A stretch of DNA of 56,031 bases from the IMG/VR virus record IMGVR_UViG_3300010885_050120, positions 1 through 56,031 of that record; one strand, 5' to 3'. Source of the DNA: a virus. Each line of letters starts with the position of its first letter. The stretch's first letter is position 1. The notes beneath the pieces were generated by a model that made no database searches, had not been told where the DNA came from, and worked only from the letters and a program-made list of their open reading frames with translations. The position numbers were made by a program, and so were the translations under genes. Positions 12,539-24,010 of the stretch are shown here, piece by piece.

Positions 12539-12541
12539 AGT
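12513..12541 (+). promoter_or_regulatory. Promoter of the 12586-13867 operon
   Basis: TTGACT, 17-base spacer, TAGAGT, within the last codons of gene 12215. A short CCCA/TGGG hairpin follows at 12550-12559. Confidence 0.6.
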
Positions 12542-12585
12542 CGTAGTAGCCCAGTTGGGTGAGTGTAGTAGATAGGAGGTGCTAG

Positions 12586-12864
12586 ATGAACGGACTGGTT
12601 GATCACGATGCGCTCGTCAAGGAGCGCGCAGGATTGCTCCCAGAGGATCGGGAGTTCCATTACATCTCAAGCGAGATGGTTGAGCCGCTCATTGGCGGCG
12701 TCATCATTGGCGGTCGCGTGGAAGAGGCTGATGGGCTTACCCCATTCCCAGTCTTGCGCGTGATGCTCAAGGGTGCGGTCTATTCCGTCGTTGTTTCTAT
12801 GGACGACGAGCAGAACGGCGGCGGTCGCCTAATGATTGAGAAAGAGGAGGTGTCCAATGGATAA
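12586..12864 (+). CDS. Hypothetical protein, 92 aa
   Basis: AGGAGG precedes the ATG. Begins MNGLVDHDALVKERAGLLP and contains a Gly/Ile-rich strand pair (LIGGVIIGGRVEEAD) and a hydrophobic strand (AVYSVVVSMDDE), suggesting a small beta sheet. First gene of the four-gene operon that includes a RadC-like protein. Overlaps the next gene by eight bases. Confidence 0.68.
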   Translation: MNGLVDHDALVKERAGLLPEDREFHYISSEMVEPLIGGVIIGGRVEEADGLTPFPVLRVMLKGAVYSVVVSMDDEQNGGGRLMIEKEEVSNG

Positions 12865-13126
12865 CAGGCAGTACAGGTTCTCTATGAAGTTCGCGGTAGA
12901 GCGCGACGTGATTATTGAGGCTGAGGACTTGGTGGAGGCGATGGCGCTTCTCACCAACGTCAGCCCAGAGATGTGCCTCGCCGAGATTGACGGCACAGGC
13001 ATCACGTTTCCAAGCAACATCAACGACCAGACGCAGGTCTACCCAGAGCACGATTTCCTTTATCGTTGCGATGAGGACGGCGCCGAGATTGACGGCGACC
13101 TGCTAGACGACAAGGACGAAGTATGA
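12857..13126 (+). CDS. Hypothetical acidic protein, 89 aa
   Basis: Start at 12857 chosen because AGGAGG lies six bases upstream. The N-terminal half (RFSMKFAVERDVIIEAEDLVEAM) looks like a beta-alpha unit; the C-terminal half is very acidic (DEDGAEIDGDLLDDKDEV). Such charge could mimic DNA. That is speculation from composition only. Confidence 0.68.
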   Translation: MDNRQYRFSMKFAVERDVIIEAEDLVEAMALLTNVSPEMCLAEIDGTGITFPSNINDQTQVYPEHDFLYRCDEDGAEIDGDLLDDKDEV

Positions 13127-13683
13127 CCGAGATTGCATTCAGGCCATACGAGGTGGTCATCACGCGTTCGCGACTGGAGTCGCAGCGCATCATTGTGAAC
13201 GACACCCCAGCTCTGGTTGAGGTGTTCAGGTCGTACTACGACGGACTCGACCGCGAGATGGTCTTGGCTGCTGTGCTAGACGATGTGAACGGATTGCTCG
13301 GTGTGTACGAGGTGTCGCGTGGCGGCACATCCGAATCGCCGATTGACCCGAACAACGTCTTCCGCCCTGCGATTCTGCTTGGCGGTAGCAAGGTGCTACT
13401 CGTACACAACCACCCGACTGGCGACCTTCGCCCGTCCGATGGAGATGTGCGCTCAGCGAAGGCGCTCTTTATGTTGGCGTCGCTCCTTGACTTGGAGGTG
13501 TCCGACAACATCGTGATCAACGCAGAAACCGGGGAGCACGAATCTGTTCACGCCCACCCAGAGTTCCGACGATGGTTAGGCAAGGATCTGATTCGCATTG
13601 CTGGGATTATGGCGGGTGGCGATTTGACGGACGAGCAGTTGGCTGCATCCGAGGAGTTGGAGAAGGTTGCTGCGAATGTCTGA
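13123..13683 (+). CDS. RadC-like JAB/MPN domain protein
   Basis: 186 residues with an ATGA start overlap. The JAMM metal motif is intact: HNHPTGD at about 95-101 followed by RPSDGD. The preceding GGSKVLLV strand and the following helix match RadC. A C-terminal extension of about 50 residues beyond the JAB domain is present. RadC-like proteins are common on mobile elements and suspected metal-dependent peptidases or isopeptidases with roles around DNA; the reaction is not established. A second copy occurs at 18487. Confidence 0.85.
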   Translation: MTEIAFRPYEVVITRSRLESQRIIVNDTPALVEVFRSYYDGLDREMVLAAVLDDVNGLLGVYEVSRGGTSESPIDPNNVFRPAILLGGSKVLLVHNHPTGDLRPSDGDVRSAKALFMLASLLDLEVSDNIVINAETGEHESVHAHPEFRRWLGKDLIRIAGIMAGGDLTDEQLAASEELEKVAANV

Positions 13684-13867
13684 CGCTATGGAGAAGCGGG
13701 TTATGTCCGCACTCGAAAGCACCAAGGCAGCACGCAAGGAGTTAGGGGTTATGGTCTTATCCATAACGCCCGACGAGGGGCTGGTCGGAGCATACGAGCA
13801 GATGTTCGCGCTCAGGAACACAGAGTCATGGCTGCAGAGGTGGCTTGACCGAATCCGCCAGAGGTAG
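13676..13867 (+). CDS. Small helical protein, 63 aa
   Basis: The ATG at 13676 overlaps the RadC-like stop by eight bases. Predicted helices (SDAMEKRVMSALESTKAARKE; ESWLQRWLDRIRQR) with a short strand between. Last gene of the operon. The next promoter lies within its final codons. Confidence 0.6.
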   Translation: MSDAMEKRVMSALESTKAARKELGVMVLSITPDEGLVGAYEQMFALRNTESWLQRWLDRIRQR

Positions 13868-13873
13868 TAGTAT
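13845..13873 (+). promoter_or_regulatory. Promoter of gene 13920
   Basis: TTGACC, 17-base spacer, TAGTAT. A TTGGG/CCCAA hairpin follows within a few bases, then AGAGTGAGAGGAGG. Confidence 0.65.
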
Positions 13874-13919
13874 CAGTGTGTTGGGGCTTCCCAACGTAGA
13901 GTGAGAGGAGGGACTAGAG

Positions 13920-14234
13920 ATGGCAGCAGCAACAAGCTGGGCTAAGGTAGAGGTCGCCGTTGAGATGGCGAAGGGCATCGCGTTTGACGAGTGCCACAAG
14001 ATCTATGTGCTTCTTGATGACGCACAGATGGATCAGATGAAGGAGTGGGGCTATGACCCGCTGCTCTCGTCGGATGATCTGACGGCGAAGGAGATGTTGG
14101 CAACGCTTCGCAAGTGGTACCACGACTCCTGCGGGCTTCGGTTTATCTCGGCGGTTCGCACCGTTGAGGGCGATCCAAATGACGGGTTCATTACCCTCAT
14201 CGGTCAGGGCGAGGACTACGACGACGCAAACTAA
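13920..14234 (+). CDS. Hypothetical protein, 104 aa
   Basis: Begins MAAATSWAKVEVAVEMAKG, followed by HKIYVLLDDAQMDQMKEWGY and a helical stretch; ends acidic (GEDYDDAN). It looks like a small alpha/beta domain. No family recognised. Confidence 0.7.
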   Translation: MAAATSWAKVEVAVEMAKGIAFDECHKIYVLLDDAQMDQMKEWGYDPLLSSDDLTAKEMLATLRKWYHDSCGLRFISAVRTVEGDPNDGFITLIGQGEDYDDAN

Positions 14235-14246
14235 GTAGCGGCGGTT

Positions 14247-14273
14247 ATGGGCGGGGGTTATGCTCCCGCCCAT
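14247..14273 (+). terminator. Terminator-like hairpin
   Basis: ATGGGCGGG / CCCGCCCAT, perfect 9-bp stem with a 9-base loop, 12 bases after the stop of gene 13920. The next gene has no promoter of its own, so read-through is likely. Confidence 0.5.
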
Positions 14274-14297
14274 ACGCCAGTTAGGAGGTTCTAGGTT

Positions 14298-14477
14298 ATG
14301 GCTAAGAGCGAATGGGCGAAGGCGTCTGAGGCCGAAAAGCGGCCGGCCTGTCCGAACAACACGCGTCATGGTGAGCTTGTGCCTCACGCAAAGGGTGGCC
14401 TTGTGTGTGTCGAGTGCGAAGAAGCTCATGCCGGGACACGCAGCCGGGAACCACACCGCTGGGCCGATCCTCGCTAG
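14298..14477 (+). CDS. Small Cys/His protein, 59 aa
   Basis: Starts at 14298 behind AGGAGG. Contains CPNNTRHG, LVCVEC and a later His-rich end, suggesting a zinc-bound mini-domain. Reading depends on the upstream promoter. Confidence 0.6.
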   Translation: MAKSEWAKASEAEKRPACPNNTRHGELVPHAKGGLVCVECEEAHAGTRSREPHRWADPR

Positions 14478-14482
14478 GGGGG

Positions 14483-14511
14483 TTGACTCATTGCGAGATA
14501 GCGAGTAGTAT
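14483..14511 (+). promoter_or_regulatory. Promoter of gene 14556
   Basis: TTGACT, 17-base spacer, TAGTAT. A TCGGG-GACTT-CCCGA hairpin is at 14519-14533. Confidence 0.7.
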
Positions 14512-14555
14512 TCGGTAGTCGGGGACTTCCCGATGTAGAGAGTGAAGGAGGGACT

Positions 14556-15035
14556 ATGGGTCAGTATCACGGACTATTCAACATTGACAAGAAGGAGATG
14601 TTGTTCCCACACGAGTTGGGCTTCGGCGCGAAGCAGTGGGAGCACACGGGCTTCGCAGGGTCGCTGTCGGACATCCTCTATGCGCTCTGCGCGTATCAGG
14701 TGAATCGCGGCGGCGGCGATTTCGGCAACGATGGCGGTATCTTCAAGGGGCGTTGGCACGGCGACCGCGTTGCGGTCGTCGGCGACTACGCTGCCTTCGG
14801 TGATCTGCCTGCGGCGTGGAACGATGCGTTCGTAGACCACGAGTACAACGGCGAAACGCACAAGGTGTTCAACATGGCTCGCGACAATGAAGACGGCACC
14901 GAGCCGTTCTTCACGGACATTGGCGACGAGATCCGCGCAAGCGTCGCGACGCTCTGGGAGAAGGATGAGCAGAAGTACATCTCTCTCCGCCAGAAGTACG
15001 CGCATGGAGCGATCTCCCCAGTACCAGTGGGTTGA
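14556..15035 (+). CDS. MGQYH-type conserved phage protein
   Basis: 159 residues opening MGQYHGLFNIDKKEMLFPHE, a start I associate with a conserved uncharacterised family in actinobacteria and their phages. It has a Gly-rich central loop (NRGGGDFGNDGGIFKGRW) and several Trp, His and Asp residues. Its TGA stop is part of the next -35 box. Function unknown. Confidence 0.72.
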   Translation: MGQYHGLFNIDKKEMLFPHELGFGAKQWEHTGFAGSLSDILYALCAYQVNRGGGDFGNDGGIFKGRWHGDRVAVVGDYAAFGDLPAAWNDAFVDHEYNGETHKVFNMARDNEDGTEPFFTDIGDEIRASVATLWEKDEQKYISLRQKYAHGAISPVPVG

Positions 15036-15060
15036 CGAAATCGGACTCCCCTGCTATCCT
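15032..15060 (+). promoter_or_regulatory. Promoter of gene 15107
   Basis: TTGACG, 17-base spacer, TATCCT. The TGA stop of gene 14556 forms part of the -35 box. A short GGG/CCC hairpin follows. Confidence 0.65.
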
Positions 15061-15106
15061 TCGGGGTAGCGGGGGATGTTCCCAAGCAGAGTGAGAGGAG
15101 GACAAC

Positions 15107-15535
15107 ATGAGTAAGTGGAAAAACATTCATTCAGAAGCGCCAAGCGGCAACATTACGATTGAGTCTTGGTACAACGCGGACAAGAATGCGCTGTTGTTCC
15201 TGCGCGACAACGCAGCAACGACATTCGGCATCTTCACCTGCGTTGAGGATGTGGTAGAGAACAACACAGACTTCGCTGTTGCTGAGGTCTGCTACGGCTA
15301 CTACACCTTCCTTTGGGAGACCGAGAACGAAAGCGCGCACGACGACTTCCTAGACGATTGTTGGGAGCGCAGCGCACACTTCACGGGCGTAGAGCACCAG
15401 TTCTCGTGCCACGAAAACTTGGGCGACTGCGAGGACGCGTACCACGCCATCCAAGTGAAGTTGGAGAACGAGGAGTGCGACGGCTGCGACATCTGTACCG
15501 AGTACCGAGTGTCCGTACCAGAGAGCCTAGCATGA
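15107..15535 (+). CDS. Hypothetical protein with Cys-rich C-terminus, 142 aa
   Basis: Aromatic-rich, acidic protein. The N-terminal two thirds looks like an alpha/beta fold (SWYNADKNALLFLRDN...), and the end carries CDGCDICTEY with upstream single Cys residues, so metal binding is possible. ATGA coupling to a tiny membrane peptide. Confidence 0.7.
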   Translation: MSKWKNIHSEAPSGNITIESWYNADKNALLFLRDNAATTFGIFTCVEDVVENNTDFAVAEVCYGYYTFLWETENESAHDDFLDDCWERSAHFTGVEHQFSCHENLGDCEDAYHAIQVKLENEECDGCDICTEYRVSVPESLA

Positions 15536-15603
15536 TAGAAATCTTCTGGGGCTTATTCGGCTCGTTGATTATGTTAGGATTAGTTATGCTACGCAGGAGT
15601 TAG
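15532..15603 (+). CDS. Tiny single-pass membrane peptide, 23 aa
   Basis: ATG overlaps the previous stop. The sequence is one hydrophobic helix (IFWGLFGSLIMLGLVML) with an RRS end. Small size leaves room for doubt, but coupling and composition support it. Confidence 0.5.
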   Translation: MIEIFWGLFGSLIMLGLVMLRRS

Positions 15604-15621
15604 GCGTAGCGCGTTATCTAC

Positions 15622-15691
15622 GAGCTGCGGGTGGGCGTCCTCCCGTCCCACAGCTCCTTCCCCCCCGGCATGTGCACTCCATGTCGGGGGG
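15622..15691 (+). terminator. Double terminator
   Basis: First hairpin at 15622-15656 (GAGCTG/CAGCTC with inner GGG/CCC pairs), second at 15661-15691 (CCCCCCGGCATG paired with CATGTCGGGGGG around a short loop) followed by a CTTCTTT stretch. Confidence 0.65.
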
Positions 15692-15710
15692 ACTTCTTTA
15701 TCTAGGGGGG

Positions 15711-15740
15711 TTGACAGATTTCACAGAGCGGGTGTAAGAT
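15711..15740 (+). promoter_or_regulatory. Promoter of gene 15785
   Basis: TTGACA, 18-base spacer ending TG, TAAGAT. A CCGC-GACTT-GCGG hairpin is at 15748-15760. Confidence 0.7.
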
Positions 15741-15784
15741 GGCAAAGCCGCGACTTGCGGTGTGTAGAGTGAAGGAGGACAACG

Positions 15785-16294
15785 ATGGGCTACTACGTTT
15801 CTGGGAACGGCTCACTCCGAATCAAGGCTGAGAACCTTGGCAAGGCGTATGAGGCGCTGATGGCGCTCCAAGACGCACCACCAAAGGCAAAGCGCGGTGG
15901 GTCGTCAGGCGGCGATCAGGCTCCACGCTTCTGGTATTCGTGGATGCCAGAGGACTTGCGAACGCTGCCAGACACCAAAGCGGTGTTTGCAGAGTTGGGA
16001 TTTGAGACCATCATTGACGACCGCAATGGCGATCTCGTGATTACCTGCTACGAAAACAAGACAGGTCAGGAAGAAGTGTTCTTCGCAGCCGCTGCGCCGT
16101 TCATTGAGGACGACGAGTACGAGTGGACTGGCGAGGACAACGACTTCTGGATGTGGAAGTTTGAGGACGGCAGGATGTTTGTCCGCTACGGCAAGCGAGA
16201 ATACGGCGAGAGGGAGGAGATTGTGCTCGCAGACCTTCACCGCCAGCAGATTGAGATGGTGGAGCGCATTGAGGCGGTTTACGCCAAGAAGTAG
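15785..16294 (+). CDS. Hypothetical protein, 169 aa
   Basis: Opens MGYYVSGNGSLRIKAENLG, has a Lys/Gly-rich linker near residue 40 (KAKRGGSSGGDQ), then a Trp/Asp-rich domain. The C-terminus is helical (HRQQIEMVERIEAVYAKK). Similar MGYYV-type proteins occur in phages in my recollection, without a known role. Confidence 0.7.
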   Translation: MGYYVSGNGSLRIKAENLGKAYEALMALQDAPPKAKRGGSSGGDQAPRFWYSWMPEDLRTLPDTKAVFAELGFETIIDDRNGDLVITCYENKTGQEEVFFAAAAPFIEDDEYEWTGEDNDFWMWKFEDGRMFVRYGKREYGEREEIVLADLHRQQIEMVERIEAVYAKK

Positions 16295-16312
16295 TTAGAG
16301 GTTATGGGTTAT

Positions 16313-16337
16313 GGGGTTAGGTGTTATGCCTAACCCC
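16313..16337 (+). terminator. GGGGTTAGG/CCTAACCCC hairpin
   Basis: Perfect 9-bp stem with a 7-base loop. The left arm belongs to a GGGGTTA-type tract. Confidence 0.6.
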
Positions 16338-16397
16338 GTAATCTGTTAGGCCCCTGGGCAGCCGGCGGCACAGCTCGGCAGATTTGAGTAGGGGGGC

Positions 16398-16426
16398 TTG
16401 ACCGAATCGCAGAGAGGCCGTACGAT
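16398..16426 (+). promoter_or_regulatory. Promoter of gene 16468
   Basis: TTGACC, 17-base spacer, TACGAT. A CCAC-ATTT-GTGG hairpin is at 16434-16445. Confidence 0.7.
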
Positions 16427-16467
16427 TGGCTTGCCACATTTGTGGTTGAGAGTGTAGGAGGTGTGTA

Positions 16468-16653
16468 ATGAGCGGTGAGCTGACGACATGCAAAGAGTGC
16501 AATGATGTTCTGTTCTACGACGACGAGAAGGTCTACATCAAGCGCGACACCGAAGGGTTAGCCTTCGCGGTCAAGGTTGATCCCCTAGCGGACATCTACT
16601 GCAACTCGTGCGCCGAGTTCCTGCTAGATGACCCCGAGGAAGTGGGGTATTGA
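16468..16653 (+). CDS. Zinc-ribbon-like protein, 61 aa
   Basis: CKEC near the N-terminus and CNSC about 35 residues later flank a small beta sheet (KVYIKRDTEGLAFAVKV). This spacing fits a Cys4 zinc ribbon. Its TGA stop lies in the next -35 box. Confidence 0.72.
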   Translation: MSGELTTCKECNDVLFYDDEKVYIKRDTEGLAFAVKVDPLADIYCNSCAEFLLDDPEEVGY

Positions 16654-16677
16654 CTTTCGCGCCATAACTGGTAAGAT
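16650..16677 (+). promoter_or_regulatory. Promoter of gene 16723
   Basis: TTGACT, 16-base spacer, TAAGAT. The upstream stop codon is part of the -35 box. A GCCACT-CAGAGC-AGTGGC hairpin is at 16685-16702. Confidence 0.7.
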
Positions 16678-16722
16678 GGCATTAGCCACTCAGAGCAGTG
16701 GCAAGAGTGTAGGAGGTGTTAG

Positions 16723-17148
16723 ATGGACACAACGAAGTGCGCATACTGCAACCCAGAGACCAGCGCAGAGGCGTGGGTCATCATTGACGAGACCTATGGT
16801 GGTCCGTACAAGGCACGCGTCCGAACCGACTATCGTTGGAACGGATTCTCCGTCCCTGCGTTTGACTTCGCAGAGGCGTTGCGCGTCGCAGCCGACACGC
16901 ACCTTCTTGGTGCTAAGTACAACGACAAGGGCGACAGCGTGGAGTTCGCTTCGTACGATGCGAGCCGCGATGCGTTCGTGATGACGGGCGGCGGACGCGA
17001 TGCGGACGATGAGCCGTTCGTGAACACCGCAACGACTTGCTGCGGTCGCTACGACATCGGCGCGATGAACTGGACTTGGGTGGAGGCAGACGAGCCAGAG
17101 ATTGGCGACCTCCCCCAGTTCACAAAAGCGCACCTCACGGAGGTGTAG
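16723..17148 (+). CDS. Hypothetical protein with Cys pairs, 141 aa
   Basis: Starts MDTTKCAYCNPETSAEAW; a CxxC pair near the N-terminus and TTCCGRYD in the C-terminal third may share one metal. The middle (FDFAEALRVAADTHLLGAKY) is helical. Followed two bases later by another Cys-rich gene in the same transcript. Confidence 0.7.
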   Translation: MDTTKCAYCNPETSAEAWVIIDETYGGPYKARVRTDYRWNGFSVPAFDFAEALRVAADTHLLGAKYNDKGDSVEFASYDASRDAFVMTGGGRDADDEPFVNTATTCCGRYDIGAMNWTWVEADEPEIGDLPQFTKAHLTEV

Positions 17149-17150
17149 TT

Positions 17151-17342
17151 ATGGCTTGCGAGCATACGGTTATTCGTTGGCTACATAACGCGCGGGTTAT
17201 CGGTTGTGAGGATTGCGATAACGCGACGGAGTACGAGCAGGGGGAACTTACGCCTTGCTCACTTATTGTCTGCGCGGATTGCGAGGAGTTCACGGAGCCG
17301 ACTAGGCCAGAGCACCACGAGCAACTGTTCAGGGGGGCTTGA
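17151..17342 (+). CDS. Small Cys-rich protein, 63 aa
   Basis: GGAGGTG lies upstream. Cys pairs CEDC and CADC plus isolated CEH and PC residues form a possible zinc ribbon. The stop TGA is inside the following -35 box. Confidence 0.65.
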   Translation: MACEHTVIRWLHNARVIGCEDCDNATEYEQGELTPCSLIVCADCEEFTEPTRPEHHEQLFRGA

Positions 17343-17367
17343 CTATTACCCCCGCCTGTGGCACACT
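17339..17367 (+). promoter_or_regulatory. Promoter of gene 17415
   Basis: TTGACT, 17-base spacer, CACACT (a weaker -10). A GGGG-AGACA-CCCC hairpin follows. Confidence 0.5.
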
Positions 17368-17414
17368 CTCCATAGGCGGGGAGACACCCCACCAAGAGTG
17401 ATAAGGAGGACACG

Positions 17415-17825
17415 ATGGGAGCTTTTGCACTAACGATCCGCAACGGCGAGATCAGCATCACGACCCGAGGCGAGGGTCTGGCTGGCTTGTACGCTGCCAC
17501 AGAGTGCTCAATGGTTGAGGTCGCTGCGGTCGGCACGCTTGGCGGCGTGAAGGTTGCGCTTCTCTGCGACGAGGAGGGGCTTCTGATTCAGAACCCAGAG
17601 CAGAACCTCACGGCGGCAGACCTTCGCGCAGAGATGAGCGACGGCTTCCCTCAGTACACACTGGTCGGGACTTGTTCACTGGTTGCTGACGATACGAACC
17701 TTCGCGGCTTCACGGCTGACGAACTGGCGAGGATCAAGAAGCAACTCAAGAAGGGCGGCTACCCGATGGCGGCAGAGTCGGTGTTCACACTAGCGGGCAT
17801 TGAGGTTCACGCCTTCAACGGCTAA
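17415..17825 (+). CDS. DUF3846-like protein, 136 aa
   Basis: The stretch MVEVAAVGTLGGVKVALL, then CDEEGLLIQNPEQNLTA and later YTLVGTCSLVADD, resembles the DUF3846 pattern (short strand, DEEG turn, N-x-x-A step, then an I/V-x-G-x-x-x-V strand). DUF3846 is common on phages and plasmids and has no assigned role. The C-terminal 40 residues form helices. Confidence 0.55.
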   Translation: MGAFALTIRNGEISITTRGEGLAGLYAATECSMVEVAAVGTLGGVKVALLCDEEGLLIQNPEQNLTAADLRAEMSDGFPQYTLVGTCSLVADDTNLRGFTADELARIKKQLKKGGYPMAAESVFTLAGIEVHAFNG

Positions 17826-17848
17826 CAGTTAGGGATCGCGTACTTAGG

Positions 17849-17880
17849 GGGAGGGGCTTATGCCTCTCCCTCTTTTGTTT
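17849..17880 (+). terminator. Rho-independent terminator
   Basis: GGGAGGGGC-TTAT-GCCTCTCCC stem followed by TCTTTTGTTT. Confidence 0.8.
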
Positions 17881-17949
17881 GAGCTGCAGTTAGGCCCCGT
17901 GGTTATACGCACCCGGTTATGCGCGATCGAGTAGGCAGCTCTAGATTGT

Positions 17950-17961
17950 TAAGATGTCTTA
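17950..17961. promoter_or_regulatory. Operator-like palindrome TAAGATGTCTTA
   Basis: TAAGA-NN-TCTTA, the same form as at 39606-39617. It lies 35 bases upstream of the promoter of the structured RNA. Confidence 0.45.
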
Positions 17962-17995
17962 CACAAACATTAACCAAATAAGTGGCTCAGGGGGA

Positions 17996-18024
17996 TTGAC
18001 GGGATCGTTTCTATGCCTTATTGT
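17996..18024 (+). promoter_or_regulatory. Promoter of the structured RNA
   Basis: TTGACG, 17-base spacer, TATTGT. The predicted RNA start coincides with the base of the first hairpin at 18031. Confidence 0.7.
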
Positions 18025-18030
18025 AGTGAA

Positions 18031-18255
18031 GTCGGAAGCGATCCTAGGACAGCGACCGACAGGGTGAGACTCGTGGACGAGCGATCAGGTCTGCCGCAGC
18101 CCTAAATGCGGGTAGACGAGAGACATGGCAAGCGATGACGACTAGGGCAGACCCTGTAAGTCTGGGAGTCGTAGGAGTGAAGTAGGGCGGAATGATCCCC
18201 GCCCTGCGGCAAACCGAACAAGAACCCCTCGGAGCGACGGCTCTGGGGGGTTTTT
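18031..18255 (+). ncRNA. Candidate structured noncoding RNA, about 225 nt
   Basis: It sits in the array like a gene, with its own promoter and strong terminator, but no credible ORF. Paired elements: GTCGG/CCGAC at 18031-18060; CTCGT/ACGAG near 18070-18081; GGTCTGCC (18088-18095) with GGCAGACC (18146-18153), enclosing CCGCA/TGCGG; GGGCGG (18185-18190) with CCGCCC (18199-18204); terminator ACCCCTCGGAGC/GCTCTGGGGGGT (18224-18251) with T5. It does not match tmRNA, RNase P, SRP or 6S features that I know. The first hairpin resembles the 5' hairpin of gene 19425. Confidence 0.65.
18224..18255 (+). terminator. Terminator of the structured RNA
   Basis: 12 consecutive pairs including G-U, four-base loop, then TTTTT. 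Confidence 0.85.
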
Positions 18256-18373
18256 GATTTTCCACTTATGGCCGGAGGTTATAGCTCGCGGTTATATGCC
18301 TGGGCGTAAGGTGCAGCCGGGGGTCAGGTCGAGTGCGCAGCTCTGTGCTGGCCGAGGTCGCGATGTGGGGGGC

Positions 18374-18403
18374 TTGACGGATTGCGCGCGGTGGCTGTAA
18401 GAT
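18374..18403 (+). promoter_or_regulatory. Promoter of the second RadC-like gene
   Basis: TTGACG, 18-base spacer ending in TG, TAAGAT. Confidence 0.7.
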
Positions 18404-18405
18404 GC

Positions 18406-18468
18406 TCTTAGCAGTTTGAGGTAAGACCACCGAGCGGCTTCGGCTTCTCGGTGGCACCACTGCTAAGA
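18406..18468 (+). promoter_or_regulatory. Large nested 5' leader hairpin
   Basis: TCTTAGCAGT (18406-18415) pairs with ACTGCTAAGA (18459-18468), and inside it CCACCGAG (18427-18434) pairs with CTCGGTGG (18447-18454). The last paired bases touch the AGAGTG element upstream of the ribosome site. It is the largest leader hairpin in the array. Confidence 0.6.
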
Positions 18469-18486
18469 GTGTGAGAGGAGGACAAG

Positions 18487-18963
18487 ATGGCTAAGGCAAA
18501 GGCTAAGGCGACCGAGTGGAAGCGTTTCCAAGTTGAGGTCGTGCGCCACGCTATCGCAGAGGCGGCTCCCTTCCGAGTGGAGCGACCAGTTGCGGCGGTG
18601 GAGTTGTTCAGAGAGGATGCCGAGCGGCTGACGCAGGAGTCCCTCTGGGTGATGACGCTAGACGGGCGCAATGGACTGATGGGCATTGAGCGCGTCTACA
18701 CGGGGACGGCTACGGGGACGAGCGTCCGTATCGGTGAGTTGTTCCGCTACGCGATTTCGGCAGGTGGCGTAGGCATTGTTCTGGTTCACAATCATCCGAG
18801 CGGTGATCCTGAACCGAGCGACGAGGATGTGAAACTGACGAGCGAAGTTATCGCAGCGGCGCAGTTGCTAGACATCCAAGTTCTAGATCACCTAGTTATC
18901 GGTAGCGATAAGTTTGCGAGCATCCGCTCGCAGCGCGGCGAACTCTGGGAAGTCGCGAACTAG
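18487..18963 (+). CDS. RadC-like JAB/MPN domain protein (second copy)
   Basis: 158 residues. A basic Ala/Lys N-terminus precedes the JAB domain. The JAMM motif HNHPSGDPEPSDED is intact at about residues 101-114, after a GIVLV strand; the C-terminal LLDIQVLDHLVIG matches RadC's end. Compared with the copy at 13123 it lacks the long C-terminal extension and stands alone under its own promoter. Reaction unknown. Confidence 0.87.
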   Translation: MAKAKAKATEWKRFQVEVVRHAIAEAAPFRVERPVAAVELFREDAERLTQESLWVMTLDGRNGLMGIERVYTGTATGTSVRIGELFRYAISAGGVGIVLVHNHPSGDPEPSDEDVKLTSEVIAAAQLLDIQVLDHLVIGSDKFASIRSQRGELWEVAN

Positions 18964-18967
18964 GGGC

Positions 18968-18996
18968 TTGACCGAGTCGCAGTTTAGTAGTAAGAT
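18968..18996 (+). promoter_or_regulatory. Promoter of gene 19041
   Basis: TTGACC, 17-base spacer, TAAGAT, starting four bases after the RadC-like stop codon. A GCGAAGG-AGATT-CCTTCGC hairpin is at 19004-19022. Confidence 0.75.
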
Positions 18997-19040
18997 TAGC
19001 AAAGCGAAGGAGATTCCTTCGCAGAGTGTAGGAGGTACAA

Positions 19041-19229
19041 GTGGACTTTGATTTGGTAAACGGCGGCTCGGTCTTTCTCTTAATCCCTAACACCGAGGAG
19101 GCGAAGGCGTGGGTGGCTGAACACCTCCCTGAGAACCCTCTCACCCTCGGTCGCGGGATCGCGGTGGAGCACCGCTACATCTCCGAGATTATGCAGGGGA
19201 TTATGGCGGACGGGCTTTCCTTCGCATAG
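19041..19229 (+). CDS. Hypothetical protein, 62 aa, GTG start
   Basis: AGGAGG lies seven bases before the GTG. The sequence (MDFDLVNGGSVFLLIPNTEEAKAWVAEHL) reads like a beta-strand then helix; the end is helical. Not recognised. Confidence 0.68.
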   Translation: MDFDLVNGGSVFLLIPNTEEAKAWVAEHLPENPLTLGRGIAVEHRYISEIMQGIMADGLSFA

Positions 19230-19247
19230 TTAGGAGTTAGGGGTTAG

Positions 19248-19273
19248 GGAGTTAGGGGTTATACCCTAACTCC
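19248..19273 (+). terminator. GGAGTTAGGG/CCCTAACTCC hairpin
   Basis: Perfect 10-bp stem with a 6-base loop at the end of a GGGGTTA tract. Confidence 0.65.
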
Positions 19274-19349
19274 TTATCCGCCTAGTGCGGCCATAGCGCA
19301 GATTCGAGCACGCAGCTCGGGATTCCGGGGGCGGGGCCGAGTGGGGGGA

Positions 19350-19378
19350 TTGACGCAATCGCGTTGATGCCCTAATGT
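19350..19378 (+). promoter_or_regulatory. Promoter of gene 19425
   Basis: TTGACG, 17-base spacer, TAATGT. A TGTCGG/CCGACA hairpin is at 19384-19404. Confidence 0.75.
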
Positions 19379-19424
19379 AGTGATGTCGGCAAGGACGACC
19401 GACACAGAGTGAAAGGAGTGAATC

Positions 19425-19715
19425 GTGGAGAACCCAACGATCATTTCCGCTAAGGAGGCAGCAGACCTCCTTACCGCCACCGAGGGGCGCATCTTCTCGG
19501 TACGCTTCATCAAGCGTACGACTGGCGAGGAGCGCGTGATGACCGCTCGCACTGGTGTGAAGAAGCACCTCAAGGGTGGTGATGCCGCCTACTCCTTCTC
19601 CGAGAAGGCACTTCTCTCGGTGTGGGATCTCAACAAGAAGGCATACCGAGCGATCCCGCTAGACGGGATTCTCTCACTCCGCGAAGGCGGGGAGGAGTAT
19701 GTGGTAGTCCGCTAG
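19425..19715 (+). CDS. WYL_2/DUF2693-like Sm-fold protein, copy 1
   Basis: 96 residues from a GTG with AAAGGAG upstream. A short helix (AKEAADLLTA) precedes strands GRIFSVRFIKRTTGEERVM and TARTGVKKHLKGGDA, then LLSVWDLNKKAYRAIPLDGIL. This is the layout of the phage Sm-like SH3-barrel family (WYL_2, formerly DUF2693). A close relative is at 23183, with most residues shared by eye. Possible RNA or protein binding; not established. Confidence 0.7.
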   Translation: MENPTIISAKEAADLLTATEGRIFSVRFIKRTTGEERVMTARTGVKKHLKGGDAAYSFSEKALLSVWDLNKKAYRAIPLDGILSLREGGEEYVVVR

Positions 19716-19723
19716 GACTCCAC

Positions 19724-19751
19724 GGAGGGGGGAGCTTTTGCTCCTCCCTCC
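19724..19751 (+). terminator. Terminator hairpin
   Basis: 12-pair stem GGAGGGGGGAGC/GCTCCTCCCTCC with a TTTT loop. Confidence 0.65.
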
Positions 19752-19764
19752 CCCTCTTGGGGGA

Positions 19765-19792
19765 TTGACTTTCGGCGCAGAACTGATAGACT
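19765..19792 (+). promoter_or_regulatory. Promoter of gene 19836
   Basis: TTGACT, 16-base spacer, TAGACT. A GCGAG-GACTT-CTCGC hairpin is at 19800-19814. Confidence 0.7.
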
Positions 19793-19835
19793 CATTACAG
19801 CGAGGACTTCTCGCAGCAGTATGAAGGAGGACACA

Positions 19836-20093
19836 ATGAACGCAGCAACACCAAAGAAGATTGAGGTCGGTCTGAATACTTGGTATCAGATCCACACCAA
19901 CGGCGGAACGACGACCTTCGCCCGCATCTATCAGGGTCAGGACTCCGACGGCTTCGGGTGCTTCTGGTTTGAGAAGATGTCGGTGGACTCAACGACGCCG
20001 CAGGGCGGGGCGGAGATCTTCGGGCATCAGGATTTCACGGGCGACCTGACCGCGTTTGATCGGCTCACCGCCGCGATTGAGAACGGAATCTAG
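19836..20093 (+). CDS. Hypothetical protein, 85 aa
   Basis: Start at 19836 behind AAGGAGG; an in-frame ATG at 19821 lies inside the ribosome site. Begins MNAATPKKIEVGLNTWYQIH and continues with strand-rich sequence containing aromatics (FGCFWFEKM), suggesting a small beta-barrel. Function unknown. Confidence 0.68.
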   Translation: MNAATPKKIEVGLNTWYQIHTNGGTTTFARIYQGQDSDGFGCFWFEKMSVDSTTPQGGAEIFGHQDFTGDLTAFDRLTAAIENGI

Positions 20094-20103
20094 GAGAGTA
20101 GCT

Positions 20104-20132
20104 GAGGCGGGGGCTTATGCCTCCGCCTCTTT
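20104..20132 (+). terminator. Rho-independent terminator
   Basis: GAGGCGGGGGC-TTAT-GCCTCCGCCTC stem followed by TTTC. Confidence 0.7.
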
Positions 20133-20190
20133 CACTTATGCGCTGGCCACTTATGCCTCGCGCGTAATTGTTACAGTCGAGCGCCCCGGT

Positions 20191-20207
20191 TTGCAACAAT
20201 GTAACAA
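20191..20207. promoter_or_regulatory. TGTAACAA element
   Basis: TTGCAACAATGTAACAA, with an inverted copy TTGTTACA at 20168-20175. It lies 20 bases upstream of the next promoter. Confidence 0.5.
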
Positions 20208-20226
20208 AGCTCCAGCGCAGGGGGGG

Positions 20227-20256
20227 TTGACGAAAACCGCAGCGCGGGTGTATGCT
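20227..20256 (+). promoter_or_regulatory. Promoter of gene 20303
   Basis: TTGACG, 18-base spacer, TATGCT. A GCGGT/ACCGC hairpin follows at 20264-20282. Confidence 0.65.
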
Positions 20257-20302
20257 GCTATCAGCGGTGGAAGTGCTACCGCCAAGAGTGAAGGAGGACG
20301 CA

Positions 20303-20602
20303 ATGGCAAAGAACCTACACGGCAAGACGCGCAGCGTGGATAGCCCGTATCTCATCATCACCTCTGGTGATTGGGAGTGGCGAGTCCTGAAGCGCTACCA
20401 GTCGCCAGACGCGGAGCGCGCCAACCCGTACGCTCGTTGGTTTGTGGCGGTGAAGTCGCCAATGACCTACGGCTCATGGGAGATGGGCGACACCTATATC
20501 CGCGAGATCCCAACCGCTACGGCGGGGATGGACTTCCCCGAAGGCGGAGCGATCCGCAGCGAGGGTGGCTTCAGGATTACGACGGCGCAGGTTATCCGCT
20601 AG
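20303..20602 (+). CDS. Hypothetical protein, 99 aa
   Basis: Start at 20303 with AAGGAGG upstream. Contains several strands with aromatic residues (YLIITSGDWEWRVLKRYQ; ARWFVAVKSP) and a Gly-rich turn near the C-terminus (FPEGGAIRSEGGFR). Not recognised. Confidence 0.68.
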   Translation: MAKNLHGKTRSVDSPYLIITSGDWEWRVLKRYQSPDAERANPYARWFVAVKSPMTYGSWEMGDTYIREIPTATAGMDFPEGGAIRSEGGFRITTAQVIR

Positions 20603-20609
20603 GAGGTTA

Positions 20610-20635
20610 GGGGTTAGGCGGTAACGCCTAACCCC
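20610..20635 (+). terminator. Perfect GGGGTTAGGCG/CGCCTAACCCC hairpin
   Basis: 11-bp perfect stem closed by a GTAA (GNRA) tetraloop. Confidence 0.7.
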
Positions 20636-20660
20636 GCCCCTAGGGGGTGGCCACCTCGAA

Positions 20661-20676
20661 TGTAACAATGTAACAA
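20661..20676. promoter_or_regulatory. Tandem TGTAACAA element
   Basis: Two direct copies, TGTAACAATGTAACAA, 19 bases upstream of the next promoter. Confidence 0.55.
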
Positions 20677-20694
20677 AGCTTCGCGGCGGGGGTA

Positions 20695-20722
20695 TTGACT
20701 TTCCCGCAGTTGGGCGTATAGT
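20695..20722 (+). promoter_or_regulatory. Promoter of gene 20768
   Basis: TTGACT, 16-base spacer, TATAGT. A GGGCGG/CCGCCC hairpin is at 20732-20751. Confidence 0.72.
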
Positions 20723-20767
20723 AAGGGTGTAGGGCGGCAAGTGATCCGCCCACAAAAGGAGGACGCA

Positions 20768-20953
20768 ATGAACGAGCACAAGTGGACGGCGCGAGATCGC
20801 AAGATCGCAAAGCGCGCACGCGGTATGGTGATGAGCGGCAAGGGTACGCTCCGCCAGCAGAACGAACTACGCGAGAAGGCGCGACACGCGGCGAAGGCAA
20901 AGGCTCGCACCGTCGCCTACACCGCGAAGGCGTTTGGCGAGGTGGCAGAGTGA
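20768..20953 (+). CDS. Small very basic helical protein, 61 aa
   Basis: Start at 20768 behind AAGGAGG. Rich in Lys/Arg/Ala (RDRKIAKRARG, REKARHAAKAKARTVAY), so probably nucleic acid-binding. Its TGA overlaps a GTG start (GTGA) of the next gene. Confidence 0.68.
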   Translation: MNEHKWTARDRKIAKRARGMVMSGKGTLRQQNELREKARHAAKAKARTVAYTAKAFGEVAE

Positions 20954-21108
20954 AGCGCGGGGGCTTCCCCCCGCTTCGCGGCACGGCGGCGTGGTATCAG
21001 GCGCAGGACGAGCGGAGAATCCGCCGCATCGCTTTGGCGCTGCTCATCGTCGCAACGCTCGCGGTGCTCGCCTTTGGCGGGTGCAACGGGGCGCACGGGC
21101 GCTGTTAG
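20950..21108 (+). CDS. Small membrane or lipoprotein-like protein, 52 aa
   Basis: GTG start overlapping the upstream stop. After a basic patch (RRIRRIA) comes a membrane helix (LALLIVATLAVLAFGGC) with a lipobox-like Cys, then a short polar tail. Coupled to the basic protein. Confidence 0.6.
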   Translation: MKRGGFPPLRGTAAWYQAQDERRIRRIALALLIVATLAVLAFGGCNGAHGRC

Positions 21109-21123
21109 GGTTAGAGGTTATAG

Positions 21124-21157
21124 GTTAGGGGTTAGGCACTTACGGCCTAGCCCCTAA
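21124..21157 (+). terminator. GGGGTTAGGC-type terminator hairpin
   Basis: GTTAGGGGTTAGGC pairs with GCCTAGCCCCTAAC with one G-T pair. Confidence 0.65.
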
Positions 21158-21223
21158 CGCTTTACGGCCGCAACGCAGCTCCAGGCAGCCGGCGGCGTAG
21201 TCGAGCGGCTGGCCGCAGGGGGG

Positions 21224-21252
21224 TTGCGCGTTTGCGCGGCAGGTTGTAGAGT
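21224..21252 (+). promoter_or_regulatory. Promoter of gene 21294
   Basis: TTGCGC (variant -35), 17-base spacer, TAGAGT. A CGGG-GACTT-CCCG hairpin is at 21260-21272. Confidence 0.6.
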
Positions 21253-21293
21253 AGCAGTGCGGGGACTTCCCGTAAGAGTGAAGGAGGCAACAA

Positions 21294-21554
21294 ATGCGAG
21301 TGACGCAGAAAGATCTAGACGCAGTGCTCAATCTGGTAAACGGCGCGCGAAAGTATCCCGAGATCGGGTACTTCTACCTGATGGGCGCCTACGGCGGGCT
21401 GAAGTTCGTTCAGATCGTGAACGAGAGCGGCGGGGTGCGCGATGTACTCCCCCGCATCGGCTACGTCGGGAAGCGCCAGATGCTAGACGCTCTCACCTCT
21501 TACCTTGAGGGGCGAGGCGAGGCGCGCACGCTAGAGCATTACGGGATCAAATGA
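21294..21554 (+). CDS. Hypothetical protein, 86 aa
   Basis: AAGGAGG precedes the ATG. Begins with a helix (TQKDLDAVLNLVNGARK), then strands (GYFYLMGAYGGLKFVQIV) and a second helix (KRQMLDALTSYLEGRG). Compact alpha/beta protein of unknown family. Confidence 0.7.
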   Translation: MRVTQKDLDAVLNLVNGARKYPEIGYFYLMGAYGGLKFVQIVNESGGVRDVLPRIGYVGKRQMLDALTSYLEGRGEARTLEHYGIK

Positions 21555-21570
21555 GGCGCGGGGCGGGGGC

Positions 21571-21599
21571 TTGACGGCTCCCGCCCGTGCTGCTATCTT
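21571..21599 (+). promoter_or_regulatory. Promoter of gene 21641, overlapping a hairpin
   Basis: TTGACG, 17-base spacer, TATCTT. A GGGCGGG/CCCGCCC stem spans the -35 region and may double as the terminator of the previous unit. A CGGG-GATTT-CCCG hairpin is at 21607-21619. Confidence 0.65.
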
Positions 21600-21640
21600 G
21601 TAGGTGCGGGGATTTCCCGTCAGAGTGTAGGAGGTGCTAA

Positions 21641-21886
21641 ATGTTTAAGGTGTGCATCGTTGATAAGAGCGCGCCAGAGTTCGCGGGCGTTTCCGAGATC
21701 GTCGGGCTCGCAACGCTAGAAGATGCTAACCGCATCGCCCAGCGCGAAGCCTACGACACCGCCGAGGTGCTGCTAGGTGAGTGGCGCGTGGTTCGGGAGT
21801 CAATGAGCGCGGGCAAGTACGGCGCGCGGCTTGAGCCCAGCACGGGCGAGGCGGGCTACATCGTGGTGATGGTAGCGGGGCAGTAG
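21641..21886 (+). CDS. Hypothetical protein, 81 aa
   Basis: Reads strand-helix-helix-strand: MFKVCIVDKSAPEFAGV, LATLEDANRIAQREAYDTA, EWRVVRESM and YIVVMVAGQ, a plausible ferredoxin-like mini-fold. AGGAGG upstream. Unknown function. Confidence 0.7.
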   Translation: MFKVCIVDKSAPEFAGVSEIVGLATLEDANRIAQREAYDTAEVLLGEWRVVRESMSAGKYGARLEPSTGEAGYIVVMVAGQ

Positions 21887-21901
21887 GTTAGAGGTTACGG
21901 G

Positions 21902-21935
21902 TTAGGGGGTTAGGCGTAAACGCCTAGCCCCCTAA
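21902..21935 (+). terminator. Long GGGGGTTAGGCG hairpin
   Basis: 15 pairs (one G-T) with a four-base loop; the stem arms are TTAGGGGGTTAGGCG and its complement. Confidence 0.7.
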
Positions 21936-21982
21936 TGCTATGCAGGCCACAACGAGCTGCAGCTCCGGCACGCGGCAGGGGG

Positions 21983-22011
21983 TTGACGCTATCGCCGCGA
22001 GGTTGTAAAGT
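21983..22011 (+). promoter_or_regulatory. Promoter of gene 22056
   Basis: TTGACG, 17-base spacer, TAAAGT. A GGCGAGG-AGACA-CCTCGCC hairpin is at 22019-22037. Confidence 0.75.
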
Positions 22012-22055
22012 AAGGGTAGGCGAGGAGACACCTCGCCAGAGTGTAGGAGGCAACA

Positions 22056-22193
22056 ATGACGGTAAGCAAAAACTACGCGGGGGCGATCATCATCTCCGAC
22101 ATCATCGGCGGGGAGCGCGTGCAACGCGTCTACATCGGCTACACCAAGCGCGAGGCGATGAGCCGCTTCCGCAAGGAGATGCGCGCGAAGTAA
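22056..22193 (+). CDS. Small protein, 45 aa
   Basis: Starts at 22056 behind AGGAGG. It has two strands (GAIIISDIIGGERV, QRVYIGYT) followed by a basic helix (KREAMSRFRKEMRAK). Unknown function. Confidence 0.65.
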   Translation: MTVSKNYAGAIIISDIIGGERVQRVYIGYTKREAMSRFRKEMRAK

Positions 22194-22200
22194 TCCAAAG

Positions 22201-22266
22201 GCGGGCGGGGGGTTATCCCTCGCCCGCTTAGGGTTAGGGGTTATAGGTTAGGCGTAAACGCCTAAC
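22201..22266 (+). terminator. Two successive terminator-like hairpins
   Basis: GCGGGCG/CGCCCGC at 22201-22227 and GTTAGGCG-TAAA-CGCCTAAC at 22247-22266. Confidence 0.6.
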
Positions 22267-22294
22267 GCGCGCAGGCCCCGAATAGAGCTCGGAG

Positions 22295-22302
22295 TGTAAC
22301 AA
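22295..22302. promoter_or_regulatory. TGTAACAA element
   Basis: Single copy TGTAACAA 31 bases upstream of the next promoter. Confidence 0.4.
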
Positions 22303-22332
22303 TTGAGGCCCGCCGGGGGCGCGGTAGGGGGC

Positions 22333-22361
22333 TTGACGATTCTCGCGCGATGACCGAGAAT
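22333..22361 (+). promoter_or_regulatory. Promoter of gene 22406
   Basis: TTGACG, 17-base spacer, GAGAAT. The whole promoter, spacer included, is identical to that at 24710-24738. A GAGGGG/CCCCTC hairpin follows at 22369-22387. Confidence 0.65.
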
Positions 22362-22405
22362 ACAGGTAGAGGGGCGAGTGACCCCTCATAAGAAAGGAGT
22401 CCACA

Positions 22406-22612
22406 ATGGACTACGAGACGTACGAGATGGATGACCTCGGGACGGGTTTTGAGGAAGCCGCCGAGCGCGAGTATGACCGCCGCGAGGAAGCCGCCATTGA
22501 CGCGGTACGTTTCCCCGATGCGGGCATCATCGCCTTCTTCACACCGCGCTCGTGCGCGGCGAAGACGTGCTGGATCGGCGACAATCACACCATTGACTGC
22601 TTGCCCTTCTAG
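22406..22612 (+). CDS. Small acidic family protein, copy 1, 68 aa
   Basis: Begins MDYETYEMDDLGTGFEEA and ends TCWIGDNHTIDCLPF. The N-terminal half (AEREYDRREEAAIDAVRFPD) is shared with gene 23768, and the C-terminal half (IIAFF-PRSC, AKTCWIGDNH, DCLPF) with gene 25652. Two Cys and a His near the C-terminus may bind metal. Family not recognised outside this window. Confidence 0.7.
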   Translation: MDYETYEMDDLGTGFEEAAEREYDRREEAAIDAVRFPDAGIIAFFTPRSCAAKTCWIGDNHTIDCLPF

Positions 22613-22618
22613 GGCACG

Positions 22619-22644
22619 GGGGGCGGGGGTTATACCCCGCCCCC
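22619..22644 (+). terminator. GGGGGCGGGG/CCCCGCCCCC hairpin
   Basis: Perfect 10-bp stem with a 6-base loop; the same stem recurs at 26800. Confidence 0.7.
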
Positions 22645-22710
22645 TAGCGGTTAGGGGTTATAGGTTATGGATTATGCATAACGCATAATGCGCAGGCCGC
22701 GCCAAAGCTT

Positions 22711-22726
22711 TGTAACAATGTAACAA
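22711..22726. promoter_or_regulatory. Tandem TGTAACAA element
   Basis: TGTAACAATGTAACAA preceded by AAGCTT; 19 bases upstream of the next promoter. Confidence 0.55.
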
Positions 22727-22745
22727 TCGAGTCGGTCACGGGGGA

Positions 22746-22774
22746 TTGACGCGATGCGCTTCCCGTGGTCTAAT
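22746..22774 (+). promoter_or_regulatory. Promoter of gene 22817
   Basis: TTGACG, 17-base spacer, TCTAAT. A GAGGGGC/GCTTCTC hairpin is at 22782-22799. Confidence 0.65.
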
Positions 22775-22816
22775 GGATGCAGAGGGGCGAACGCTTCTCA
22801 GAAGAAGGAGGACGCA

Positions 22817-23002
22817 ATGGGAATGACGAAAACGGGTAGCGGCATCGTGCTTGTCGGCTATCTAGACACCGCGTGCGGGGTTGTATTCTGCCGCGATTGT
22901 GGAGACCACGGCGATGGGACGTGGATGGAGACCATCTACTCCCCCGACGTCAATGAGGACACCCCGCCGTGCTCCTCGTGCGATGCACGGTTGGACGCCT
23001 AG
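22817..23002 (+). CDS. Zinc-ribbon-like protein, 61 aa
   Basis: Start at 22817 behind AAGGAGG. CGVVFCRDCGDHGDG and a C-terminal CSSCD form a Cys4 zinc-ribbon arrangement separated by an acidic loop. Function unknown. Confidence 0.72.
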   Translation: MGMTKTGSGIVLVGYLDTACGVVFCRDCGDHGDGTWMETIYSPDVNEDTPPCSSCDARLDA

Positions 23003-23021
23003 GGTTATCGGTTAGGGGTTA

Positions 23022-23047
23022 GGGGTTAGGTGATAACGCCTAACCCC
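23022..23047 (+). terminator. GGGGTTAGG/CCTAACCCC hairpin
   Basis: Perfect 9-bp stem with an 8-base loop. Confidence 0.6.
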
Positions 23048-23074
23048 TGCCGCCCCGCTGGCCTCCCCAGAGCT

Positions 23075-23091
23075 TTGTAACAATGTAACAA
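23075..23091. promoter_or_regulatory. Tandem TGTAACAA element
   Basis: TTGTAACAATGTAACAA preceded by AGCT, 19 bases upstream of the next promoter. Confidence 0.55.
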
Positions 23092-23110
23092 TCGGGCGGC
23101 CAGAGGGGTA

Positions 23111-23139
23111 TTGACTCTTTGCCCGTTTGGGTGTTCAAT
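23111..23139 (+). promoter_or_regulatory. Promoter of gene 23183
   Basis: TTGACT, 17-base spacer, TTCAAT. An ACGGGA/TCCCGT hairpin is at 23148-23166. Confidence 0.6.
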
Positions 23140-23182
23140 AGGTGTAGACGGGACGAGTGCTCCCGTAGATGTGGAGGGTCAT

Positions 23183-23461
23183 ATGACCATCACAATGAAA
23201 GAGGCGGCAGACATCCTGACCGCTTCCGATGGGCGGATCGTTTCCGTTGTTTTCGTGAAGCGCACCACGGGCGAGACCCGCACGATGGTATGCCGAACGG
23301 GCGTTAAAAAGCACCTGAAGGGCGGGGACGCCGCCTATTCGTTCAGCGCCAATGCGCTCCTGAGCGTTTGGGATATGGGAGTGAAGGGTTATCGCTCCAT
23401 CCCGCTTGATGGGATCGTCTCCCTCAAGAGCGGCGGCGTAGAGTACGCGGTCAAAGGGTAG
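23183..23461 (+). CDS. WYL_2/DUF2693-like Sm-fold protein, copy 2
   Basis: 92 residues from the ATG at 23183 (GGAGGG upstream). It aligns without gaps to gene 19425 over almost its whole length, sharing RTGVKKHLKGGDAAYSF exactly. Differences are mostly conservative, indicating an older duplication kept under selection. Confidence 0.7.
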   Translation: MTITMKEAADILTASDGRIVSVVFVKRTTGETRTMVCRTGVKKHLKGGDAAYSFSANALLSVWDMGVKGYRSIPLDGIVSLKSGGVEYAVKG

Positions 23462-23472
23462 GGCAAAGGGAG

Positions 23473-23491
23473 GAGGGGGACGCGCCCCCTC
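23473..23491 (+). terminator. GAGGGGG/CCCCCTC hairpin
   Basis: Perfect 7-bp stem with a five-base loop shortly after the stop codon. Confidence 0.55.
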
Positions 23492-23532
23492 TCCCCGCCC
23501 GAAAAGCTGACGGCGGGGCCTCGCAAGGGGTA

Positions 23533-23561
23533 TTGACAAACGCGGCGGAGTGTGCTACAAT
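23533..23561 (+). promoter_or_regulatory. Orphan promoter 1 (no gene downstream)
   Basis: TTGACA, 17-base spacer, TACAAT: one of the best consensus matches in the array. The next 130 bases hold only GGGGTTA-type repeats and GC-rich inverted repeats, then the promoter of gene 23768. It looks like a cassette that lost its gene. Confidence 0.65.
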
Positions 23562-23694
23562 AAAGGGGGAAGGGTTATAGGTTACGAGCTTACGGGTTAG
23601 GGGTTATAGGTTACGGCCTAACGCGTAACGCGCCCGGCGCCGCCGGCAGCGGCCTCGACTGAAAAAGCTCTGGCCGTGACGGCCACAAGGGGGG
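23562..23694 (+). repeat. Gene-less spacer with GGTTATAGG/GGGGTTA repeats
   Basis: Contains several copies of GTTA(C/G/T)GGG or GGTTATAGG and CGCGTAACGCG-type palindromes. No ORF or ribosome site is seen. Confidence 0.5.
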
Positions 23695-23723
23695 TTGACG
23701 ATTCTTCAATGATGACGGAGAAT
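23695..23723 (+). promoter_or_regulatory. Promoter of gene 23768
   Basis: TTGACG, 17-base spacer, GAGAAT. A GAGGGG-CAGACG-CCTCTC hairpin is at 23731-23748. Confidence 0.65.
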
Positions 23724-23767
23724 GAGTGCAGAGGGGCAGACGCCTCTCACAAGAAAAGGGGTGCAAC

Positions 23768-23989
23768 ATGTACGACGAACTGGACGACATGGGTACGGGA
23801 TACGAAGAGGCGGCGGAGCGGGAGTACGACCGCCGCGAAGAGGCGGCGATCCACGCCGTACGCTTCCCAGATGAGGCGATTCTGGCATTCTTCGCCCCGA
23901 CCCCCTGCGACTGCGCGAAGGGCGATACCGACGCTGCGGTTGGGGCGCTGCTAACGGGGCGCTGCGCCCGCTGCGGTTGGGGTGCATAG
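23768..23989 (+). CDS. Small acidic family protein, copy 2, 73 aa
   Basis: Start at 23768 (AGGGG upstream). The first 45 residues (MYDELDDMGTGYEEAAEREY...) match gene 22406 closely. The C-terminus differs: PTPCDCAKGD ... RCARCGWGA, giving four Cys in two pairs instead of the CWIGDNH end. It seems to have exchanged its C-terminal module. Confidence 0.7.
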   Translation: MYDELDDMGTGYEEAAEREYDRREEAAIHAVRFPDEAILAFFAPTPCDCAKGDTDAAVGALLTGRCARCGWGA

Positions 23990-24010
23990 CGGTTAGGGGT
24001 TAGGCGAGAG

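Follow-up and report, generated by a model that had tools for sequence, protein, structure and literature searches.

The 56,031-nt stretch of viral DNA analysed here (the window) almost certainly contains a functional non-coding RNA gene at 18031..18256, and the RNA that it encodes is a new viral family, which occurs in the window in a compact form. The best explanation as a whole, to which we give about even chances, is a free-standing gene of this new family whose product would act in trans, with putative binding to the host. The original prediction of a structured non-coding RNA occupying a gene slot was supported by the comparative evidence, and the promoter and terminator that it had placed around about 225 nt, TTGACG-17-TATTGT and a 17-bp hairpin, are present. 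That prediction included neither the presence of the 5' hairpin in almost all of the mRNA leaders nearby nor the longer versions of the RNA in relatives. The features of the gene are collected in Table 1.

Table 1. Elements of the RNA gene in the window (helices are given as 5' strand/3' strand)
Feature	Position	Strand	Remarks
Sigma-70-type promoter, TTGACG-17-TATTGT	17996..18024	+	-35 and -10 retained in homologues, spacer divergent
Non-coding RNA gene	18031..18256	+	Monocistronic; predicted transcript ~226 nt
P1, 5'-terminal hairpin	18031..18060	+	GUCGG 18031-18035/CCGAC 18056-18060; inner GC pairs 18038-18039/18052-18053; helices 1-2
Self-complementary loop UCCUAGGA within P1	18042..18049	+	Possible kissing loop
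GGUGAGA, 3' of P1	18063..18069	+	GGUGAG common to all three types; position corresponds to AGAGUGA of mRNA leaders
P2 domain	18070..18120	+	CUC 18070-18072/GAG 18118-18120; GUCU 18089-18092/AGAC 18114-18117; CCGCA 18094-18098/UGCGG 18107-18111; helices 3-5, compensatory changes
P3	18139..18171	+	CGACU 18139-18143/AGUCG 18167-18171; CAGAC 18148-18152/GUCUG 18160-18164; helices 6-7
P4 hairpin	18182..18207	+	18182-18190/18199-18207; pairing kept despite sequence differences between members
Terminator hairpin	18219..18256	+	17 bp, 18219-18235/18240-18256; loop GACG 18236-18239

Homologues and distribution

The RNA is carried by 34 records including the window, and the others, at least 33 in number, are all uncultured viruses of bacteria. 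The first homologue contigs were reached when the RadC-family protein encoded next to the RNA was used as a query; pattern scans gave ten contigs of type I, nineteen of type II, and further L164, assigned to type II, and L165 and L166, assigned to type III. A covariance model (R1) run on whole records gave matches that included G009 (type I) as well as G018, G022, G031 and G035 (type II), the latter four of which were also returned by the type II pattern scan. Nine of the ten capsid-linked clade records of at least 70 kb hold the RNA (G009, G010, G014, G022, G024, G028, G029, G031 and G035), and it was not found in the remaining one, G025. The search of isolated phages and plasmids found no copy of the RNA, and among bacteria, with each species represented by one genome, pattern scanning returned nothing beyond chance matches. 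Several other matches were set aside: four in bacterial genomes to a 20-base pattern, which were chance matches in unrelated contexts; L002 and L003, chance pattern matches with just 17-18 bases in common; and model matches in L123/L124, inside or beside the capsid gene, and in L158, in a promoter-leader region, which were false positives.

The core of the RNA is 86-87% identical to those of L007 and L008, with the shared RadC gene at 74% and the gene order differing. No close relatives of the window, which is an IMG/VR virus record, were found among 50,697 phage records. The capsid and portal proteins of the window are approximately 24-28% identical to those of phages of unrelated hosts, and host assignment through these proteins was dropped because the identities were too low. 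The portal protein (Phage_portal), encoded at 36715-38934, has an LNS2-like match in its C-terminal part, and 39786-42245 encodes a predicted 819-aa protein with prohead-protease, Tudor-like Hva1 and ferritin-like (Dps-type) domains, an unusual fusion among virion genes.

Gene signals

The limits of the transcript were inferred, the start from the -10 box and the end from the terminator hairpin. The promoter is one of 22 promoter-like sites across 14-26 kb, where 3.8 were expected, and TTGAC(A) with a -10-like box at an equal distance was found in the RNA homologues for which upstream sequence is present. A T-rich tract with five U follows the terminator hairpin, whose loop, cGACGg, is invariant among members and whose stem covaries; the GACG loop is also kept in type II, without a U-tract. 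The terminators of protein genes at 17846-17873 and 20104-20129 have a common GCTTATGC loop, in contrast to GACG in the RNA. The folding energy of the RNA region was -104.5 kcal/mol compared with -78.8 +/- 5.0 kcal/mol for shuffled sequences (z = -5.2), a value to which the terminator contributes.

Folded core and covariation

The paired elements proposed originally are genuine and covary among relatives. In an alignment of 14 sequences (A5), 95.9% of the cells for the 27 core pairs of seven helices were paired, and when the partners were slid by one to three columns, this fell to 29-51%. Compensatory changes were found in 11 of the 27 core pairs, and the covariation score was reached by none of 500 shuffles, which leave the relatedness between the sequences in place. 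Since A5 was fitted to a model of nearly the same structure, its counts lean towards the structure tested; a plain sequence alignment of fewer sequences (A3) gave the same direction, with 5 pairs and none of 500 shuffles reaching the score. P3 is the strongest helix, with 6 pairs changed on both sides and one pair that occurs as three Watson-Crick types (GC in 8, UA in 4 and AU in 2). Furthermore, an inner C-G pair of P1 is G-C in L118, and the P2b helix GUCU/AGAC is GUCA/UGAC in L007. The loops and junctions are conserved across members, and UGGACGAGCGA(G/U)CA at 18074-18087, on the 5' side of the P2 domain, is near-invariant.

The exception was an 8-bp long-range stem drawn between 18088-18095 and 18146-18153, whose strands are complementary in the window but in relatives are paired in 59% of cells, with zero compensatory changes. 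Each strand belongs instead to a local helix that covaries, the first to 18089-18092/18114-18117 and the second to 18148-18152/18160-18164. An alternative hairpin UGG..CCA suggested by RNAalifold was dropped, being without covariation, as was a long-range pairing of 5' UCGG with CCGA before the terminator, which is invariant in type I and missing from type II.

The statement that no open reading frame with a ribosome site is present holds in general, with the exception of one 10-codon GTG frame (VDERSGLPQP). This frame, with GGTGA upstream, is found in the window, L007 and L008, and has 14 codons in L015, which would be the basis for regarding the locus as a small-protein gene or leader peptide. 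However, the frame is missing from L005, L016, L018, L020 and L021, half of the type I members, and the substitutions within it are non-synonymous and helix-compensatory. Indels of 1-2 nt shift the frame between close relatives (for example, ACTC-TGG versus ACTCGTGG), which argues against a peptide. Frame-preserving substitutions, named originally as what would speak against an RNA, were looked for among the homologues; what was found were frame-breaking indels and helix-compensatory changes. A coding function is therefore the least probable of the explanations considered here.

Longer forms in relatives

The RNA of the window is regarded as a compact version because the forms in relatives are longer. 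In type II, conserved non-coding sequence runs on past the GACG hairpin to a later terminator, giving a predicted RNA of 440-540 nt, and the 3' part has more stems with covariation, seen in 14 of the 124 pairs predicted in an uncalibrated RNAalifold structure. Some type II members have an extra terminator-like hairpin mid-way, and in these it is possible that there is either one long transcript or two shorter ones. The predicted RNA of type III is approximately 367 nt. At the long-form loci, such as L128 (8276-8810) and L163 (9150-9515), the extra covarying domains lie 3' of the segment that the window also has. The homology of the 3' parts of types II and III rests on short common motifs, ACGATAAGG and GGGTCTA, recognized by eye, and is put forward with that qualification.

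Comparison with catalogued RNAs

The original impression that the RNA resembles none known was borne out, in that Rfam 15 gave no match to the entire window at the gathering cut-off. With relaxed thresholds, the best scores for the RNA region were 17.5-23.9 bits, far below the cut-offs, and the top match, His_leader, spans the terminator; the type II and type III loci were likewise negative against Rfam. The covariance models of GOLLD and ROOL matched neither the window RNA nor types II and III, and ARAGORN found no tRNA in the 56-kb window. Like GOLLD, for which palindromic kissing loops have been reported (PMC12286853), the RNA is phage-borne and free-standing and has an elaborate covarying structure. 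In contrast, GOLLD is often longer than 800 nt and located near tRNA islands, whereas the RNA described here has 226 nt and the window is tRNA-free. ROOL is also phage-borne, an ornate RNA that assembles as an RNA-only multimer, but it differs in sequence and structure, in length and in layout, and no tRNA is located near the RNA of the window. Phage-encoded trans-acting sRNAs that act on host mRNAs are expressed from the phage genome with their own promoter and terminator. The window RNA likewise has both, but is larger and more structured than these sRNAs, and the U-tract of its relatives is weak or absent: most members of type I have an interrupted tract, and type II lacks one. The RNA is therefore not a typical Hfq RNA.

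Genomic setting

Nearly all promoter-leader units detected at 10472-26053 consist of a host-type promoter, a hairpin formed by the very start of the transcript, AGGAGG and a start codon, and most of the leaders, approximately 40-46 nt in total, have an AGAGTG-type element between the hairpin and AGGAGG. This shared architecture may serve mRNA stabilisation or aid translation. The 5' part of the RNA matches this cassette, with GTCGG...CCGAC followed by GGTGAGA, and the core of the RNA takes the place of the ribosome site and reading frame; the nearest leader by sequence is that at 19384, GTCGG...CCGACACAGAGTGA. This likeness in sequence between the start of the RNA and the array leaders points to use of the standard cassette of the array by the RNA gene, which may also derive from it.

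The neighbours of the RNA encode RadC-family, DUF932, DUF7249 and DUF3846 proteins. Two RadC-family JAB proteins are encoded in the array, at 13123-13683 and 18487-18963, with the RNA just upstream of the second. A cis-acting leader or attenuator of a downstream RadC-family gene might be considered, since such a gene is the next likely downstream gene in the window, L005, L006 and L008. However, the RNA ends in a strong terminator, 18487-18963 has a separate promoter, and the downstream genes vary among 15 loci. At these loci, some of the listed antisense ORFs are probably spurious, as the ORF caller was simple. The slot of the RNA, among small early-type genes, varies between genomes with no constant neighbour, making regulation in cis very improbable.

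Proposed mode of action

In the explanation that we prefer, host RNA polymerase would transcribe the RNA early in infection from the host-type promoter, the early timing being one that we infer from the host-type promoters and the types of neighbours (RadC, DUF932 and DUF3846). The RNA would then act in trans as a folded object, and may bind a host macromolecule, either a protein or the ribosome, as a putative decoy or scaffold. For this last step the chances appear to be slightly below even. Binding to a host protein or the ribosome is nevertheless the most likely mode, because what is conserved in this compact fold are its loops and junctions and because the setting of the gene within the array is consistent with a takeover of the host; a peptide, control in cis and pairing with leaders of the phage itself are less likely. 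Two candidates were dropped: antisense action on the phage's own mRNA leaders, since no excess of pairing was found among the 23 leaders, and a CsrA decoy through GGA motifs, since neither the window nor L020/L021 has retained the GGA of the P3 loop.

Alternatively, the RNA could be a base-pairing regulator, in which the conserved unpaired GGUGAGACUC(G)UGGACGAGCGAGCA of type I pairs with host mRNAs and GGUGA maybe pairs with the 3' end of 16S rRNA. The 14-nt segment is near-invariant, forms one strand of an internal loop and has no conserved partner; it could equally be an antisense seed, which counts against a decoy or scaffold. Furthermore, GGUGAG is present in all types, and AGGUGA is complementary to UCACCU of the 3' end of bacterial 16S rRNA. 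On the other hand, the 14-nt segment is missing from types II and III, there is no excess of pairing with the phage's own leaders, and the U-tracts are weak in many members, with none in type II; we therefore consider a base-pairing regulator unlikely.

Similarly unlikely is a homo-oligomer formed via the self-complementary 5' loop, which would be a small functional analogue of ROOL or GOLLD. All types have a palindromic P1 loop, which switches between UCCUAGGA, UCUAGA (in L008/L015/L016) and GCGUACGC (in type III, L165/L166), although the alignment of P1 across types depends on its stem alone. In OLE and GOLLD, palindrome switching of this kind was used as evidence of intermolecular contacts (PMC12286853). 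The best hint at a homodimer comes from type III, where the loop centre has switched from CUAG to GUAC, since those bases cannot all pair inside one chain; the statistical support for this loop is modest, with shuffle p values of 0.03 and 0.008 for the 8-mers and 0.19-0.26 for the hexamer. The self-complementarity would thus permit homodimers without proving them. The long multi-domain forms of relatives (~367-540 nt) also fit an oligomer. However, a single palindromic loop was found in the compact form, the UCUAGA subgroup can make a local UUC/GAA stem and its palindrome alone is not significant, and the Rfam comparison showed no link to ROOL or GOLLD. Less likely still is the fuller proposal of self-assembly through the palindromic 5' loop into a particle or scaffold made of RNA alone, which would work early in infection, with the family growing from 226 to approximately 540 nt by covarying domains.

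To our knowledge, few structured phage RNAs are known besides tRNAs, and the large ones, GOLLD and ROOL, are of unknown function. Nearly every near-complete member of this uncultivated phage clade has kept the family described here, which, reduced to approximately 226 nt in the lineage of the window, offers a small object for work on structure and function. If binding to a host factor is true, the RNA would be an RNA-based tool of host takeover, encoded alongside RadC- and DUF932-type genes in the same array.
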